Below, one piece after another: positions 5,021-19,337 of a stretch of 19,337 nt of DNA. The stretch spans positions 1-19,337 of the forward strand of contig JAQVZR010000004.1 in assembly GCA_028708105.1 (NCBI GenBank), in the 5' to 3' direction. Position numbers and translations under genes: made by a program. Below the pieces are notes generated by a model. The model worked only from the letters and a program-made list of their open reading frames with translations. It made no database searches and was not told the DNA's origin. Within the stretch, counting starts at the first letter, position 1. The number at the start of each line of letters is the position of its first letter. The DNA is from Desulfoplanes sp. (GTDB lineage: Bacteria; Desulfobacterota; Desulfovibrionia; Desulfovibrionales; Desulfomicrobiaceae).

Positions 5021-6001
5021 ATGGCTCAAGAATATAAAACCATGGAATTCCGGGTGGGGATATTCCTGATTACGGTTCTCGTGGCCATCCTCGCCATTAT
5101 CGTCTATGTTGGAATCCAGAATGACCTGTTTGCCGACAAAGTAACCTATTATGTAAGCAGCAATACCGGTGAAAATATCGAACGGGGAATTCCCGTGCGC
5201 GTATCCGGATTCAAAATCGGCAATGTCCAAAAGGTGTATCTTGATAATGTAGGGAATATCAAAGTGGAGCTGGAAATTCTGGAACGGTATCAAAAATGGA
5301 TCCGCAAAGACTCCAAGATTATTTTGGACCAGGAGGGCATTATCGGGAATTCATATTTCAAGCTCATTCCCGGCAGCGACACAAGCCCGATGCTCAAAGA
5401 AGATGCAATCATCAAGCTTTCCAAAGTAGCTGGCCTCAATGAACTGATTCAGGATGCCGAACCCGTCATCAAAAATCTTAAAGAAATTGTGGCTAACATC
5501 CGTGATATTACGAACAGTTTTTTGGATAAAAAAGGACAAGTGCAATCCATCCTGACGAATACGGAACAAATATCAGAACGGATTCTGAGAAATAAAGGCA
5601 TGCTTTATTACCTGACAGAAGATCCACGCCCCGTGGACCAGCTTAACTCCATTTTGGCCAGAACCGACCATGCGGTACAAAGTATCGACCGACTGGTGCA
5701 AAATTCAACGGCCAGAATCAACGATCTGCAACCCATTCAGGAAGAACTGGTCAACATTCTCAAAGAAGGGCAAACCTTCATTACCAGCCTTGACTCCATC
5801 CGGGCCGAGCTCTCACCGACCCTTGCCAATGCCGCTCAGATCAGTGAGAATGTAAAAAATGCAACCACTGACCTGGTCCAATTGCGCCGCCAGGGAGAAT
5901 ACACCATCAGACTTGGCACGGAACTTTTGCAGCGGCTCAAGGAAACCTGGCCTTTTGCTCGTGGAAAAATGGAACAAAACATAACCTATCCGGCACCATG
6001 A
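5021..6001 (+). CDS. MCE-domain substrate-binding protein, MlaD-like
   Basis: Membrane-anchored periplasmic MCE (mammalian cell entry) protein of 326 residues. A single N-terminal transmembrane helix lies at about residues 12-31. The MCE domain spans roughly 39-117, with the core pattern GENIERGIPVRVSGFKIGNV and the closing GIIGNSYFKLIPGS. The remaining 200 residues are predicted helical with coiled-coil character, typical of longer Desulfobacterota and Chlamydia-type MCE proteins. By family knowledge, MCE domains form hexameric rings or tubes that shuttle lipids between inner and outer membrane, driven by MlaE/MlaF. The stop overlaps the next start in an ATGA arrangement (5998-6001), so the downstream lipoprotein gene is translationally coupled. 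Confidence 0.92.
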   Translation: MAQEYKTMEFRVGIFLITVLVAILAIIVYVGIQNDLFADKVTYYVSSNTGENIERGIPVRVSGFKIGNVQKVYLDNVGNIKVELEILERYQKWIRKDSKIILDQEGIIGNSYFKLIPGSDTSPMLKEDAIIKLSKVAGLNELIQDAEPVIKNLKEIVANIRDITNSFLDKKGQVQSILTNTEQISERILRNKGMLYYLTEDPRPVDQLNSILARTDHAVQSIDRLVQNSTARINDLQPIQEELVNILKEGQTFITSLDSIRAELSPTLANAAQISENVKNATTDLVQLRRQGEYTIRLGTELLQRLKETWPFARGKMEQNITYPAP

Positions 6002-6771
6002 CCGAACAACTGCGCCCCCGACGCTCAATAATGGCAGCGACACGTTGCATACGCCTTCGTCACCTGACTTTTGGCCTGCTGATCTGCCTTGCGTGTGGAG
6101 CATGCACCATGCTGCAGAAGACACCTGCTCCCTACGCTCCACCGGACAGACTGACCCTAGCGGCATCCCTGCGCCAGGATTTTGTGCAGGAATTTCTCGC
6201 AGGCAGGTGGTGTGCTGCCCGGGTCCTCTTTCTTCAAGCCCAAGAATATTATCTCCGTCAGGATGATTTCTGTTCCGTGGCCCAAACATATGTACTGGCC
6301 TACAAACTCCATGCCTACCTCGGGGTTAAATTTCCTCATCTCCTTGACAAAGCGATGAATTTTGCTCAGCAGGGGCTGGATTGCACAACAGACATCCTTG
6401 ATACGGAAGGACAACCGCTTGCGGGGGAACAGGACAAAGCAATGAACGCCCTGCTTGACGCCCATGCCTGGCCAACCATTTTCACCCAGCTCAACCACAA
6501 ACGAGATCCGCTTTTTGCATCAGTCTATGCTCGCAAGGCTGCCAGGAAGGCCCTGCAAACGACCCCACAATGGTCCATAAAATTTCTGGAACTGGCCCAT
6601 AACATTGACAGCCGCCAGGGTTGGGTACTCTTTCTCATCCAAGACTGGAAACTCCAACGGACTATTGAATCAAATCCTCAACGCCAAACGTGGATAGACC
6701 AACGGATTGCCACCTTGTACGACCTTATTGAGCCTTGCGAACAGCCCTTTTCCGGGCCAGATAATATATGA
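5998..6771 (+). CDS. Putative lipoprotein of the MCE operon
   Basis: Hypothetical 257-residue protein with a positively charged N terminus and a hydrophobic segment at about residues 22-35 (LTFGLLICLACGAC). Cys33 or Cys36, each preceded by Ala, could be the lipidated residue, although neither fits the lipobox perfectly. The mature part is helical and rich in Gln, Leu and Ala, with a TPR-like look (for example YLRQDDFCSVAQTYVLAYKL near residue 90), but no repeat can be defined. It starts at the ATGA overlap with the MCE gene and ends in another ATGA overlap with the following PilZ-like gene. By position it is a candidate outer-membrane or periplasmic partner of the MCE transporter, replacing MlaA/MlaC, which are not present nearby. 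This role is inferred. An internal ATG at 6031 is an alternative start. Confidence 0.7.
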   Translation: MTEQLRPRRSIMAATRCIRLRHLTFGLLICLACGACTMLQKTPAPYAPPDRLTLAASLRQDFVQEFLAGRWCAARVLFLQAQEYYLRQDDFCSVAQTYVLAYKLHAYLGVKFPHLLDKAMNFAQQGLDCTTDILDTEGQPLAGEQDKAMNALLDAHAWPTIFTQLNHKRDPLFASVYARKAARKALQTTPQWSIKFLELAHNIDSRQGWVLFLIQDWKLQRTIESNPQRQTWIDQRIATLYDLIEPCEQPFSGPDNI

Positions 6772-7702: not shown

Positions 7703-8548
7703 ATGGAAGACGGCCCAGAACATAGAAATTTCTGGAATAAACTCCAAAAACTTTTTGGGCAACGCCAGGATACACCCATCGAAGAGGCCATTATGGAGGC
7801 CAATGAAGATGGAGAAATCGAAAATGACGAGGTTTCCATGCTGCTCAATGTCCTACACTTGGACACCAAACTGGTTACAGAAATAATGATTCCCAGGACA
7901 GAAATGGTCTGTGCTGAAGAAAATGAATCACTCAAGGATATAGCCAATCTGATCATCGAAAATGGCCATTCCCGGATTCCTATCTATCGCCAGAGCAAGG
8001 ACAACATTATCGGCCTGATCCATGCCAAAGATCTTCTGCCTTTTTTTGTGCACCCGGAAACACAAAAAGCCGATCTGACAAGTATCCTCCGGTCAACGCT
8101 GTTCATTCCAGACACCAAAAATGTTCGTGATATCCTTTTGGAATTTCAAGCAAAGAGTCTTCATATGGCCATAGCATTGGACGAATATGGTGGTACGTCC
8201 GGTCTGGTTACCTTAGAAGATGTACTGGAAGAAATCGTCGGGGAAATTGAAGATGAGTATGATACGCCCAAACCAGATGCGATTCAGGAGATCGAAGAAA
8301 ATAAGCTGCTTATCTCTGGCCGGACTTCACTGGATGCGATCAAGGAAGAATGCGGCATTGATTTGATTTCCGACCAGGTTGAAACTATTGGCGGCTTTTT
8401 ATGCGAACAGGCAGGTAAGGTACCTCAGCGGGGAGAATCTCTGACTATTAAGGACCATATTTTTGAAATCAAAGAGGCGGATAAGAAGCATATCCTCTGG
8501 GTTATTGTCATGCCCGCCAAAAAGTCACAAGATGCTCACATCCAGTGA
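7703..8548 (+). CDS. corC: CorC/YbeX-type CBS-pair protein (HlyC/CorC family)
   Basis: Cytoplasmic protein of 281 residues without transmembrane segments, so it is the short CorC type and not the membrane CNNM/YfjD type. Two CBS motifs lie at about residues 57-118 (VTEIMIPRTEM, HSRIPIY, GLIHAKDLL) and 125-182 (ALDEYGGTSGLVTLEDVLEEIVGEI), followed by the CorC_HlyC domain at about 195-275. E. coli CorC has been linked to magnesium/cobalt efflux; an adenine-nucleotide-sensing role through the CBS pair is known for the family. A consensus AAGGAG lies just before the ATG. It is followed by lnt, the same pair as in the E. coli ybeX-lnt cluster; ybeY and ybeZ are not in the window. Confidence 0.93.
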   Translation: MEDGPEHRNFWNKLQKLFGQRQDTPIEEAIMEANEDGEIENDEVSMLLNVLHLDTKLVTEIMIPRTEMVCAEENESLKDIANLIIENGHSRIPIYRQSKDNIIGLIHAKDLLPFFVHPETQKADLTSILRSTLFIPDTKNVRDILLEFQAKSLHMAIALDEYGGTSGLVTLEDVLEEIVGEIEDEYDTPKPDAIQEIEENKLLISGRTSLDAIKEECGIDLISDQVETIGGFLCEQAGKVPQRGESLTIKDHIFEIKEADKKHILWVIVMPAKKSQDAHIQ

Positions 8549-11966: not shown

Positions 11967-12242
11967 GTGAACAAAAGCGAATTGATCAAAACATTATCTG
12001 AAGAAAACAATATCTCCATGGAAGAAGCCGTTATCGTGGTGAATACCTTTTTTGACTCCATCCGGGAAGAATTGGTACAGGGCAACAGAGTCGAAATCCG
12101 AGGGTTTGGAAGTTTTAAAATCAAGGAATATGAAGGTTATCAGGGACGTAACCCTAAATCAGGCAAACAGGTAGCTGTCCAACCGAAAAAACTTCCGTTT
12201 TTTCGACCAGGTAAAGAACTTAAAGAATATCTCAATAAATAA
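11967..12242 (+). CDS. HU/IHF-family DNA-binding protein
   Basis: Small nucleoid-associated protein of 91 residues, the standard size. The dimerisation helices (MNKSELIKTLSEENNISMEE) are followed by the beta-saddle. The family signature region appears as VEIRGFGSFKIKEYEGYQGR and then NPKSGKQVAVQPKK, with the DNA-intercalating loop tip near NPKSGK, and closes with FFRPGKELKEYL. It could be HU or an IHF subunit; VAVQPKKLPFFRPGKELKE is closer to the HU/IHF-alpha-like proteins found in multiple copies in sulfate reducers. The start is GTG at 11967, fixed by a perfect AGGAGG at 11954-11959 seven bases upstream. Its stop is 16 nt before the UshA-like gene, suggesting co-transcription. Confidence 0.95.
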   Translation: MNKSELIKTLSEENNISMEEAVIVVNTFFDSIREELVQGNRVEIRGFGSFKIKEYEGYQGRNPKSGKQVAVQPKKLPFFRPGKELKEYLNK

Positions 12243-12258
12243 CTGGCTGATATAATTT

Positions 12259-13176
12259 ATGATGTCTTTTCGGATTTTTATTTGTACGCTTTTCTTTATT
12301 GTTACATTGGGAAAAACAGGATCGGCCAAGCCGCTTCTAACAGTCCTTTATACTGCCAACACGTGGGGTTACCATAACCCATTGCGTGCCTGAGGAGGAA
12401 AAACCCTTGGAGGGATGGCCCGGCGGGCCACTATTTTTTCAAAATACAACGACACTATCAATACGTTGCGGATCGCCGGTCCTTACGAGTTCAATAAATG
12501 GGATGGCAGTAGTAACTTGCCTGACAGATATGACGATCCCCTTTTCCAGGGATACACAGCCCTTGGTTATTCACTGGGCATCCTTGGCCATGAGGAAACA
12601 CACGCCGCACATTTTTTCCAAAGAAACCAGCCGGGATCGTGGGTTTCTTTATCCGCGCACCCGACGGTGCAATATATCCCCACCCACGACGGAAAAATAG
12701 CAGTGGTGATTTTTCCTGACGTCCAAAAAATACAAACAGTTTCCAAAGCCATGTTCTTGGATGTACAAAACGTTATCAAGACACTTCGCGCTGATTCCGA
12801 TATAAAATTGATCATCGGCATCAGCCCTTGGGGTAGACAGCAAGAACAAAAATTTTTAGATTCTCATGCAGAGGGTTGCGATGTTCTGCTGGGAAGTGGA
12901 CCTGGCGCCGGGCTCACCTCTTCCCTGAGCCCAAACCACCAGACATTATGGGTACGAGCCTATAGCAAAGGGCGAACCGTAAGTATGTTGCAAATTGAAC
13001 ATTTTCCATCCCGTACGGCAAAATTTTCTTGGCGGATCGGAAAAAATATTACATCCAACCTTCTTGTTCTTAACGAAAAAGTGCAGGCAAATTCAGCCAT
13101 GCAAAAAATATTGGCCCCGCTGGATACCCAGGCAAAAAGATCAGAATCTCCTCGCAAAACCTCCTGCGGCCACTAA
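12259..13176 (+). CDS. UshA-like periplasmic protein, candidate selenoprotein (in-frame UGA, Sec45)
   Basis: Reading from ATG 12259 (or the adjacent ATG 12262) gives a signal peptide (SFRIFICTLFFIVTLGKTGSA), then KPLLTVLYTANTWGYHNPLRA, an in-frame TGA at 12391-12393, and without any shift GGKTLGGMARRATIFSKYND and 240 further residues to 13176. The total is 305 residues. The part before the UGA supplies the first beta strand (LTVLYTANTWG, equivalent to the LHTNDxHG strand of 5'-nucleotidase/UshA metallophosphatases). The part after it supplies the GGxARRAT helix, so the UGA falls inside one conserved domain. In homologues I recall a Cys stands just before the GG..LGG.ARRAT stretch, which is where Sec replaces Cys in other families. 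Later blocks include LRIAGPYEF, LGYSLGILGHEE, LIIGISPWGRQQEQ and DVLLGSGPG. An ATG at 12415 could begin a shorter product, but it would lack export signal and first strand. Decay by a nonsense mutation is the main alternative. Confidence 0.65.
12398..12440 (+). ncRNA. Possible bacterial SECIS-like structure after the UGA
   Basis: Just downstream of UGA 12391-12393 lie two adjacent GC hairpins: CCCT-TGG-AGGG (12404-12414) and TGGCCC-GGC-GGGCCA (12416-12430). The flanking GAAAAA (12398-12403) and TTTTTC (12435-12440) can close the whole as an outer stem. The second hairpin presents G at the start of its loop, 28 nt after the UGA, inside the roughly 16-37 nt window described for bacterial SECIS elements. 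The structure is by-eye pairing only. Confidence 0.4.
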
Positions 13177-13219: not shown

Positions 13220-14077
13220 ATGACATCCTCCCAGGCGCAGACCGTTCCCTTCTATAAAATGCAGGGTAGCGGCAATGATTTTATTCTCTTTGACAACCGA
13301 TCTCTGAGACTCCCCACTTCATCCATGCAACGCTGGGCACAAAAACTTTGTGCCAGGGCATTCAGCATTGGTTCGGACGGACTGATTTTTATCGACCACC
13401 CTCCCGTAGGCAGTTCCCTGGATTACATCTGGCATTTTTATAATGCAGACGGGTCAAGGGCAGAGATGTGCGGCAATGGATCACGATGTGTAGCCAAATT
13501 GGCGTATAAACTAGGTATCGCCGGGGAATCCCAGACCTTCGGAACCGATGCAGGTCCCATCCGGGCAACCATCCTGCCGGAGATAAACGAAGTCAAAGTT
13601 CAGCTTACAAAACCTTCCGAAGAGCAATTACACCTCACCATCACCAAAGACAGCGGTGAAGAGATGGACGTACATTTTATAAACACCGGCGTCCCCCATG
13701 CCGTCCTTTTCGCCAATGATGTCAAAAAGGTGGACGTCGCTCAAATGGGCAAATCAATCAGGTACAATCCTCAATTTGCACCGGCAGGGACCAATGTAAA
13801 TTTTGTCCAGATTCAGGACAGAGAGCATATTCTTTTGCGCACCTACGAACGCGGCGTTGAAAATGAAACGTATGCCTGCGGCACGGGAGCGAGTGCGTCC
13901 GTATACATAGCCCATGCCCTGGGGAAATGTTCAGAACATGTGGCGGTTACGACTACAGGAGGAGAAAGCCTCACAGTCCACTTGGAGAACAGCGATGTGT
14001 TTCTCCAAGGACATGCGCAACTGGTCTATACCGGTCATTTTCAACCCCAAGCCCTTGGCTTGGAAATCCCTGAATAA
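13220..14077 (+). CDS. dapF: Diaminopimelate epimerase
   Basis: Cytoplasmic PLP-independent epimerase converting LL- to meso-diaminopimelate for lysine and peptidoglycan synthesis; 285 residues against 274 in E. coli. The two active-site cysteines are visible: Cys84 in AEMCGNGSRC and Cys220 in YACGTGASAS. The N-terminal MQGSGNDFILFDNR and central NTGVPHAV are also typical. The frame is open much further upstream (to 12995), overlapping the UshA-like gene, but the family N terminus begins near VPFYKMQGSGNDF. The ATG at 13220 has AGGA at 13208-13211, so this start was chosen. It is followed by dapA after 89 nt, so two enzymes of the same pathway are adjacent. Confidence 0.96.
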   Translation: MTSSQAQTVPFYKMQGSGNDFILFDNRSLRLPTSSMQRWAQKLCARAFSIGSDGLIFIDHPPVGSSLDYIWHFYNADGSRAEMCGNGSRCVAKLAYKLGIAGESQTFGTDAGPIRATILPEINEVKVQLTKPSEEQLHLTITKDSGEEMDVHFINTGVPHAVLFANDVKKVDVAQMGKSIRYNPQFAPAGTNVNFVQIQDREHILLRTYERGVENETYACGTGASASVYIAHALGKCSEHVAVTTTGGESLTVHLENSDVFLQGHAQLVYTGHFQPQALGLEIPE

Positions 14078-14166: not shown

Positions 14167-15045
14167 ATGGAATGTAAAGGCGCACTGACCGCCCTTGTAA
14201 CTCCGTTTAAAAACGGAGCAATAGATGAACAGGCCTACCGCAACTTCATTGAGTGGCAGATTGAATGCGGCATCAACGGCGTGGTTCCCTGCGGCACCAC
14301 GGGGGAATCCGCGACCTTGAGTCACGCCGAACACAAACAGGTTATCCGTATCTGTATTGATCAGGTCAAGGGGCGGGTGCCCGTCATCGCGGGATCAGGT
14401 TCCAATAACACTGTTGAAGCCATAGAACTCACCAAATTCGCCAAAGCAGCTGGTGCCGATGGTGCGCTCATGATCACCCCTTACTATAATAAGCCCACTC
14501 AAGAAGGCCTCGTAGCCCACTTCAAGGCCATAGCCCATGAAGTCTCCATGCCGTTTATCGTCTACAATGTTCCCGGGAGAACCGGTACCAATCTGCTCCC
14601 CAAAACCCTCGGCCGTATGGCCCGGGAAATCCCGGAAGTTGTTGGTGTCAAGGAAGCCACAGCTGATTTAAAACAGGCTGCTGAAATCGTGGAGATATGC
14701 GGAGAAGATTTCACCTTACTTTCGGGGGATGATTTTACCATTCTTCCCTTTCTCGCTCTGGGCGGCAAAGGGGTCATCTCGGTAATATCCAACATCGAAC
14801 CAGCCAAAGTCAGTCAGATGTGCGCGGCATGTCTGAAGAACGATTGGATACAGGCAAGAAACCTCTTTTATAACCTGAGTCCACTAACCCGAGCCATGTT
14901 TCTTGAATCCAACCCCATTCCAGTCAAAACAGCGGCAGCCTTGATGGGTAAAATGGAACCAACCCTGCGTCTGCCCATGTATCCTCTGTCCAAGGAGCAT
15001 ACTCTGGAACTGGAAACATTATTAAAACAACGCAAACTGATATAG
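14167..15045 (+). CDS. dapA: 4-hydroxy-tetrahydrodipicolinate synthase
   Basis: Class I aldolase condensing pyruvate with aspartate semialdehyde, the first committed step of the diaminopimelate/lysine branch. The length of 292 residues equals the E. coli enzyme. Thr44-Thr45 (CGTTGES), Tyr133 and Arg138 (YNVPGRTG) and the Schiff-base lysine Lys162 (VGVKEAT) are all in place. Gly-rich GSGSNNT and ITPYYNKP complete the family pattern. AAAGGGAGG just before the ATG is a strong ribosome binding site. A small hairpin (GTAGCG/CGCTAC, 14115-14129) lies in the dapF-dapA gap, with no T tract. A strong terminator follows at 15083-15121. Confidence 0.98.
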
Positions 15046-18542: not shown

Positions 18543-19337
18543 ATGCAACAATCTACAGGTCAAAGAATAAAGAATCAACAACAGTATATCGCTAATCATG
18601 TTCACAATTCAGATTGCTCTGATTTTTTCAATCTGCTGACCGGCCCAGAATTACTGGATGTTGTTGAAGCACATTTACCCGCGCATCGTGAACGTCTCTA
18701 CACACCAACGGTGACGCTTTCGTTATTTATGACCCAGGCGCTGAGCAGCGATAAATCTTGCCAGAGCACCGTCAATGCCTACGTGATTAATCGTGTTTTC
18801 AAAGGTCTGGACACTTGTAGCACGGGGACAAGCGCCTATTGTAAAGCCCGGAAGAATCTACCGCTGGAGATGGTTAACAGTATCGCGAGGCAGGCGGGGC
18901 GGGTGATCGTTGAACACACGTCAAATGCGTGGCACTGGCGAAATCGACAAGTCAAGTTGGTCGATGGCACAACGGTAACGATGCCAGATACGCCAGAAAA
19001 CCAAGCGATTTATCCTCAACAGAATGGTCAAAAACCGGGACTTGGTTTTCCAATTGCTCGGATTGTTGGACTCATTTGCCTGGGGAGTGGTGCTATACTT
19101 GATGCGGCCATCGGCCCGTTCAAGGGTAAGAGTACCGGCGAACACGTGTTGTTTCGCCAGTTGCTAAATTCTTTGAATCCTGGCGACGTGGTGTTGGCAG
19201 ATCGGTACTACAGTAGCTATTGCTTGATTGCTCAATTGTTGGCCAAGGGTGTAGATATAGTTTTTGGGCAGCACGGCAGCCGTAAAACCGATTTCAAAAA
19301 AGGCAAACGCCTGGGAGCTTGTGATCATATCGTTGAA
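18543..19337 (+). CDS. IS4-family transposase (C terminus beyond window)
   Basis: DDE transposase, 265 residues visible, open to the window end. The N-terminal helical domain (FFNLLTGPELLDVVEAHLPA, then TLSLFMTQALSSDKSCQ) is typical of IS4-group enzymes. The first catalytic Asp is in VDGTTVTMPDT (Asp141), and the second in LADRYYSSY (Asp220). The YREK-type Glu motif would come after the window edge. ATG at 18543 is the first in-frame start, with GGAG 12 nt upstream. The gene is not interrupted in the visible part, so the element may still be active. Orientation is to the right. Confidence 0.93.
   Translation, partial: MQQSTGQRIKNQQQYIANHVHNSDCSDFFNLLTGPELLDVVEAHLPAHRERLYTPTVTLSLFMTQALSSDKSCQSTVNAYVINRVFKGLDTCSTGTSAYCKARKNLPLEMVNSIARQAGRVIVEHTSNAWHWRNRQVKLVDGTTVTMPDTPENQAIYPQQNGQKPGLGFPIARIVGLICLGSGAILDAAIGPFKGKSTGEHVLFRQLLNSLNPGDVVLADRYYSSYCLIAQLLAKGVDIVFGQHGSRKTDFKKGKRLGACDHIVE

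Follow-up and report, generated by a model that had tools for sequence, protein, structure and literature searches.

UshA-like (COG0737) selenoproteins with a CxU motif were reported from ocean metagenomes in 2008 (PMC2398784), and a UshA-like/COG0737 CxU selenoprotein appears in the list of a review (PMC9312934), as far as the accessible parts of both articles extend. The accessible portion of the 2008 article makes an exception of the UshA-like proteins when it describes conserved Cys-based redox motifs in the major families, though its table gives CxU for them (PMC2398784). A UshA-like family 2, with the motif CxxU and the remark 'GenBank annotated', is listed in the available part of a 2026 review (PMC13188914), and the available main texts of four further articles make no mention of UshA (PMC5029168, PMC12013277, PMC1794560 and PMC1914089). 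Across the literature searched, part of it in excerpt, UshA-like selenoproteins are not assigned a function, and no loss of the CxxU cysteine in family 2 was found in the selenoprotein papers, which is not proof of absence.

Here we describe a locus in a 19,337-nucleotide stretch of DNA from Desulfoplanes sp. (order Desulfovibrionales), referred to as the window, in which one gene contains a stop codon that almost certainly specifies selenocysteine; the product of this gene, probably exported, belongs to UshA-like family 2. The features are collected in Table 1.

Table 1 Features of the UshA-like selenoprotein locus and its neighbours in the window
Feature	Position	Strand	Remarks
HU-type DNA-binding protein gene (presumed), upstream	11967..12242	+	tblastn of the window HU: homologue nearby in 72 of 88 loci
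Selenoprotein gene, UshA-like (seleno)protein family 2	12259..13176	+	305 residues, Sec at 45, TAA stop 13174-13176
Probable signal peptide, residues 1-23	12259..12327	+	Hydrophobic core then GSA/K; judged visually on the translated sequence
Codon 42 (Leu) at the Cys position of CxxU	12382..12384	+	Cys in 98 of 100, Ile in congener G018
In-frame UGA, selenocysteine 45	12391..12393	+	Frame and alignment column of relatives
Probable SECIS hairpin TGGCCC-GGC-GGGCCA, in the coding region	12416..12430	+	22 nt after the UGA codon
Codon 207 (Cys)	12877..12879	+	Alignment column 257; Cys in window and congener proteins only (n = 100)
Codon 303 (Cys), tail TSCGH	13165..13167	+	Congener ends SSCGQ
dapF (presumed), downstream	13220..14077	+	Present at 31 of 88 loci
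dapA (presumed), after dapF	14167-15045	+	Present at 66 of 88 loci

Assignment to UshA-like family 2

The window protein gave 269.8 bits against the NCBIfam model NF049981 (cut-off 140), covering model positions 1-261 of 262, and the protein of a congener, G018, also scored above the cut-off with 264 bits. The same model was matched by all 60 aligned members at E 0.01 or better. As the window protein lies above the cut-off, it belongs to a family that is already named, UshA-like family 2, and whose function is uncharacterised. The window protein has in common with this family the full-length match, the Sec/Cys column, a GGLARRA-type segment after Sec, a single domain and a probable signal peptide. 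It differs by Leu in place of the CxxU cysteine (Ile in the congener) and by the additional Cys 207 and C-terminal Cys, the latter in a tail that lies outside the model, which stops at residue 285. The sequence before the UGA reads PLRAU in the window protein and PIKAU in the congener, whereas the other 98 of 100 proteins carry the motif cysteine; assignment as a typical CxxU member was thus rejected, and the window protein is regarded as a variant of family 2.

Against the CxU model NF041198, UshA-like (seleno)protein (PCGU), the window protein reached 30.7 bits, below the cut-off of 275. Both share the UshA-type fold family and a Sec before GG.ARR, but CxxCH haem motifs occur in 35 of 38 untruncated CxU UGA forms and are lacking in the window protein. 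Relatives of the CxU/PCGU type, including those at L184, L192, L197, L205, L208, L209, L212, L214 and L215, carry fused regions that contain CxxCH haem motifs. E. coli UshA, the CD73 5'-nucleotidases and SoxB share with the window protein the catalytic-domain fold and a weak profile match; unlike them, it does not keep the metal-ligand motifs, has Sec instead, and at 305 residues, compared to more than 500 in that group, has no second large domain. Searching Pfam with the window protein gave no match, and a further Pfam search gave scattered weak matches with E 0.026 or worse. Nine UGA/Cys relatives from outside the order, drawn from L172-L176, L186, L190 and other phylum-level loci, were scanned in addition; seven of them fell below the cut-offs of both NF049981 and NF041198, so unnamed groups of UshA-like selenoproteins seem to exist outside the order.

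Conservation of the in-frame UGA

A relative was found in 184 of 348 genomes of the order by single-sequence search and in 186 by alignment search, in which the class seemingly comprised these 348 genomes again. Most of the listed order matches contain one inner TGA. Ninety loci were read: the top 30 matches, plus a further 60 selected to spread over genera and to include all 15 listed matches seemingly without an inner TGA. In the 100 distinct order proteins obtained from 88 of these loci, the UGA column shows a UGA codon in 81 and a cysteine in 19, with no third state, a ratio that is no random sample because the 15 seemingly TGA-less matches had been fetched on purpose. With further, partly repeated loci the counts are 129 UGA and 45 Cys in 174 rows. 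At the phylum level, 169 of 395 genomes gave a match. Six of the 169 lie inside the order, and the others matched more weakly; the 26 outside-order rows that were read comprise 23 with UGA, one with Cys and two partial rows lacking the column. The congener G018, estimated to be 100% complete, has the same UGA in the same column, and the window protein conforms to the family's invariant columns. The cysteine that the first-pass annotation had placed at this site in homologues is therefore borne out by the column, and the residue other than Cys or Sec that it had named as counter-evidence is absent from site 45 in the 100 order proteins.

Tandem pairs occur in genus g54, where the UGA form (PCPSU) lies next to a Cys form (PCPTC) of the same family, as if both were needed (L034, L040, L045, L050-L054, L056-L059 and L061). 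The coexistence of UGA and Cys forms, such tandem paralogues, and the Cys forms in genomes that lack Sec machinery constitute natural experiments on Sec, which bear on the role of this residue on a nucleotidase scaffold.

Loss of the motif cysteine in one genus

The new part of the finding is the genus variant without the CxxU cysteine. The window and congener proteins are 46% identical overall, and both have acquired-looking cysteines elsewhere (Table 1). No cysteine occurs in the last 16 residues of the other 98 order proteins, so that in this set a tail Cys is present precisely where the motif Cys is missing (2/2 vs 0/98), a coincidence that may reflect one event in one genus. G018 was the single congener that the search returned. 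At column 257, which corresponds to Cys 207, the other relatives mostly have Val, Leu or Phe, and Cys 207 may accordingly be buried. It is also probably far from Sec 45 in the structural model described below, since it precedes strand 209-212, whose other end should face the former metal site.

In most family members, an oxidised Sec would be resolved by the cysteine three residues before it (CPxU). Since this cysteine is gone in the genus, another thiol must take over this step if Sec 45 is oxidised, and the candidates would be the tail Cys 303, Cys 207 or an external thiol. A relocated resolving thiol is possible, with counter-examples in other lineages. Enzymes such as thioredoxin reductase or MsrA use a tail-swing mechanism of this type. 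We put forward only tentatively, as a rather doubtful proposal, that the resolving thiol has moved from CxxU to a flexible C-terminal Cys-Gly tail that swings towards Sec on a once-nucleotidase scaffold, and perhaps has done so independently in a few other lineages. The competing view, in which Sec 45 has no internal partner and functions alone together with an external reductant, and in which Cys 207 and Cys 303 either have nothing to do with it or form a structural disulfide, has about an even chance of being correct. It draws support from the probable distance of Cys 207 and the mostly hydrophobic character of its column, and from relatives that lack both a neighbouring and a tail cysteine (L204/G680, L235, L267, L278 and L290); the exact coincidence of tail Cys and motif loss in the genus speaks against it, with the reservation that this is perhaps a single event. 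Any resolving partner of Sec 45 is putative, and the genus variant allows the question of this thiol to be addressed by two point changes in a laboratory protein.

The association of a tail cysteine with the absence of a neighbouring one was also counted more widely, in 225 distinct proteins collected with a GG..R[RK]-type pattern, which may miss odd members. After leaving out 44 Cys forms and three truncated UGA forms, 178 UGA proteins remained. A cysteine in the last 14 residues was present in six of the nine without a neighbouring Cys, in none of the 131 with CxxU and in 20 of the 38 with CxU (Fisher p 9e-9, relatedness ignored). Two order loci, L167 and L168, were placed in the phylum bin of this count. 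Among the phylum-level UGA proteins without a neighbouring Cys, the tail Cys was found in four of seven (L186, L190, L256 and L259, and not L204, L235 and L267). Within the taxonomic family to which L190 belongs, three proteins read from genus g281 have inner cysteines at about +75 and about +95, with a tail Cys in one of the three, and G731 has a single, different cysteine. Taken over the four members read that lack the neighbouring Cys (three of g281 and one of g302), a tail Cys occurs in one, two of the four having been counted already. This mixed pattern in g281, g302 and the phylum implies that loss of the cysteine is often accompanied by a cysteine elsewhere, following no single rule; the expectation that a missing neighbouring Cys goes with a C-terminal Cys is only partly borne out.

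Fold and putative function

AlphaFold2 modelling with 60 sequences gave a confident structure (pLDDT 91.1, pTM 0.88), for which the best PDB matches in Foldseek were CD73 and other 5'-nucleotidases (E 1e-14, TM by query 0.64), with UshA (1ush) matched at E 5e-13. The model places Sec 45 after strand 27-32 and ahead of helix 53-61. When the family profile was aligned to 5'-nucleotidases and SoxB, the matches were weak (E 0.003 to 0.11), and in them the motifs ND.H, GNHE, SH and GHTH, which we take to be the metal ligands of these enzymes, are aligned to ant.y-type, tpee, Sp and GpGp, respectively, in the family profile. The metallophosphatase-type domain proposed in the first-pass annotation is thus retained as a fold, whereas the metal-ligand motifs are not kept in these weak profile alignments.

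Because the 5'-nucleotidase ligand motifs are not kept, a redox role is likelier than a phosphatase. We also considered a catalytically active UshA-like nucleotidase, or a metallophosphoesterase of another kind, that would use Sec as a metal ligand, and rejected it: the fold does match 5'-nucleotidases, but the loss of the ligand motifs, as judged from the weak profile alignments, leaves this assignment very unlikely. The preferred reading, to which we attach fairly good confidence, is a redox role. The mature protein would adopt the N-terminal domain fold of 5'-nucleotidases (UshA) but lack conserved metal ligands. Sec 45 would occupy the loop that follows the first strand and adjoin the former metal site, a placement based on the model and on analogy with the nucleotidases, and the protein would most likely be a periplasmic selenol/thiol redox protein. 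Two points speak against a redox role: the exception made for UshA-like proteins in the 2008 article (PMC2398784), and the absence of even the CxxU cysteine from the window protein. Export is suggested by the probable signal peptide in the translation.

Selenocysteine machinery

The source draft genome (2.26 Mb in 392 contigs, 77.6% complete) contains selA (612 bits), selD (330 bits) and selB in two contig-edge pieces covering model positions 1-148 (201.8 bits) and 142-580 (187.9 bits), each of which alone is below the cut-off of 242 and which we infer to be one gene. For tRNA-Sec, the best hit in this 77.6% complete draft gave 42 bits, under the cut-off of 47; the congener G018 has selA and a tRNA-Sec of 82.4 bits. 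The sel gene check called for by the first-pass annotation therefore came out in favour as to selA, the selB pieces and selD, and left the tRNA-Sec missing in the draft itself and present in the congener. The selD gene of the same genome (L018, G000:C157) carries an in-frame TGA of its own, in the GUAAK motif, and SelD is probably itself a selenoprotein, judging from this codon.

Across the order, selA was found in 276 of 348 genomes. Two lists were compared by hand, and 27 order genomes carry a relative while lacking selA. Of the 27, eleven were read as having the Cys form only, and ten of the eleven have no tRNA-Sec above 50 bits: G177, G187 and G191 are barely over the Rfam score of 47 with 47.8-48.4 bits, compared to 76-86 bits for clear tRNA-Sec genes. 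The remaining one, G182, has a tRNA-Sec of 77.4 bits together with a Cys form and no selA. Fifteen of the 27 have the UGA form, assigned by stop count only for G067, G073 and G008, and G329 has a UGA form plus a Cys copy; the 27th genome, G341, has no inner stop and stands outside the form counts. A tRNA-Sec of at least 77 bits was present in ten of the 14 UGA-form selA-less drafts searched, so that the missing selA is probably a gap there; in the other four (65-84% complete) none was found. Counter to a strict link, G064-G066 (genus g18) use Cys despite having selA and tRNA-Sec. In genus g35, selA was not found in the Cys-form genomes (L125-L127, L129, L133-L135 and L137), and the congener G181 (L120) keeps the UGA; this genus is perhaps a natural Sec-to-Cys switch.

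These distributions also bear on the decoding of the UGA. Through reassignment or a suppressor, a conserved in-frame UGA might specify some amino acid other than Sec; it might also serve as a regulatory stop with low-level readthrough, recoded UGA not always being Sec. However, Cys is the only alternative residue at the site, and the Cys-form selA-less genomes mostly lack a tRNA-Sec that most of the UGA-form drafts possess. TGA also terminates three of the 13 other main open reading frames of the window (5021-6001, 5998-6771 and 7703-8548), indicating that it is a general stop and not reassigned. Decoding other than as Sec is on these grounds highly improbable.

A probable SECIS hairpin within the coding sequence

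A bacterial SECIS element is a hairpin just downstream of the UGA with a G in its apical loop, and 12416-12430 forms such a hairpin after the UGA with G in the loop. Codon constraint was analysed in 53 UGA forms below 70% identity and ten non-redundant Cys forms, the latter so few that single-column bias in them is noisy. In the UGA forms, codon bias at positions +8 to +12 after the UGA amounts to 0.97, 0.78, 1.72, 1.15 and 0.50 bits, compared to 0.29 bits or less in 41 of 42 other conserved columns; the exception, Ser at +161 with 0.69 bits, is biased in the Cys forms too. Arg at +10 is encoded by CGG in 49 of the 53 UGA forms vs three of nine Cys forms (p 2e-4, relatedness ignored). Each of the six stem positions in the constrained stretch is paired in 48 to 53 of the 53 UGA forms, with a GG[C/A] loop in 52, vs pairing in five to nine of the ten Cys forms and a GGC loop in three.

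By folding energy, the stretch 12391-12440 is unremarkable (z -0.53 vs shuffles). The Rfam SECIS model RF00031 gave no match in the source genome and was silent also in the 14 control genomes of that search, and an Rfam search around the UGA returned chance-level matches only. The probable SECIS is thus detectable via codon constraint though not via folding energy. Of the two GC hairpins that had been noted after the UGA, the second, at 12416-12430, is supported by codon conservation, and the first shows little codon constraint. It is proposed that SelB with Sec-tRNA, guided by the second hairpin, would read the UGA as selenocysteine 45; such insertion is inferred from conservation and machinery.

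Integrity of the reading frame

The frame 12259-13176 has stops at codons 45 (TGA) and 306 (TAA) only. Not one of 20000 base shuffles of the gene gave at most one in-frame stop, and the remaining five frames have 7 to 14 stops each across the gene. The single in-frame UGA in an otherwise unbroken frame, as originally described, was accordingly confirmed, and the mechanical list of open reading frames does begin this frame at 12415 (253 aa), the truncated start that had been foreseen for a gene caller. That the UGA is a sequencing error, or a genuine nonsense mutation in a gene under decay, as its breaking of the gene in that mechanical list and the draft state in 392 contigs might suggest, has a negligible probability against the same UGA in the same column of 81 of 100 proteins, including the congener with its estimated completeness of 100%, and against the retention of the invariant columns with no second lesion over 305 codons. 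The absence of other signs of decay, claimed earlier for this gene, holds equally. With the UGA/Cys column, the Sec machinery and the codon constraint all supporting the candidate selenoprotein of the first-pass annotation, we assign the gene with high confidence to the selenoproteins of UshA-like (seleno)protein family 2.

Genomic neighbourhood

The gene stands between HU and dapF, as had been stated, with dapA following; these gene names are presumptive and partly follow the first-pass annotation. The 16 bases between the end of HU and the start of the selenoprotein gene suggest that the two are co-transcribed. The counts of neighbours in Table 1 refer to loci most of which extend 1500 bases each way, and a neighbour that was not found may simply lie farther off. 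At the far edge of the window, an open reading frame (18543-19337) runs off the contig end and resembles, by eye, the DDE transposase of an insertion element, and the contig break may have arisen from such a repeat.
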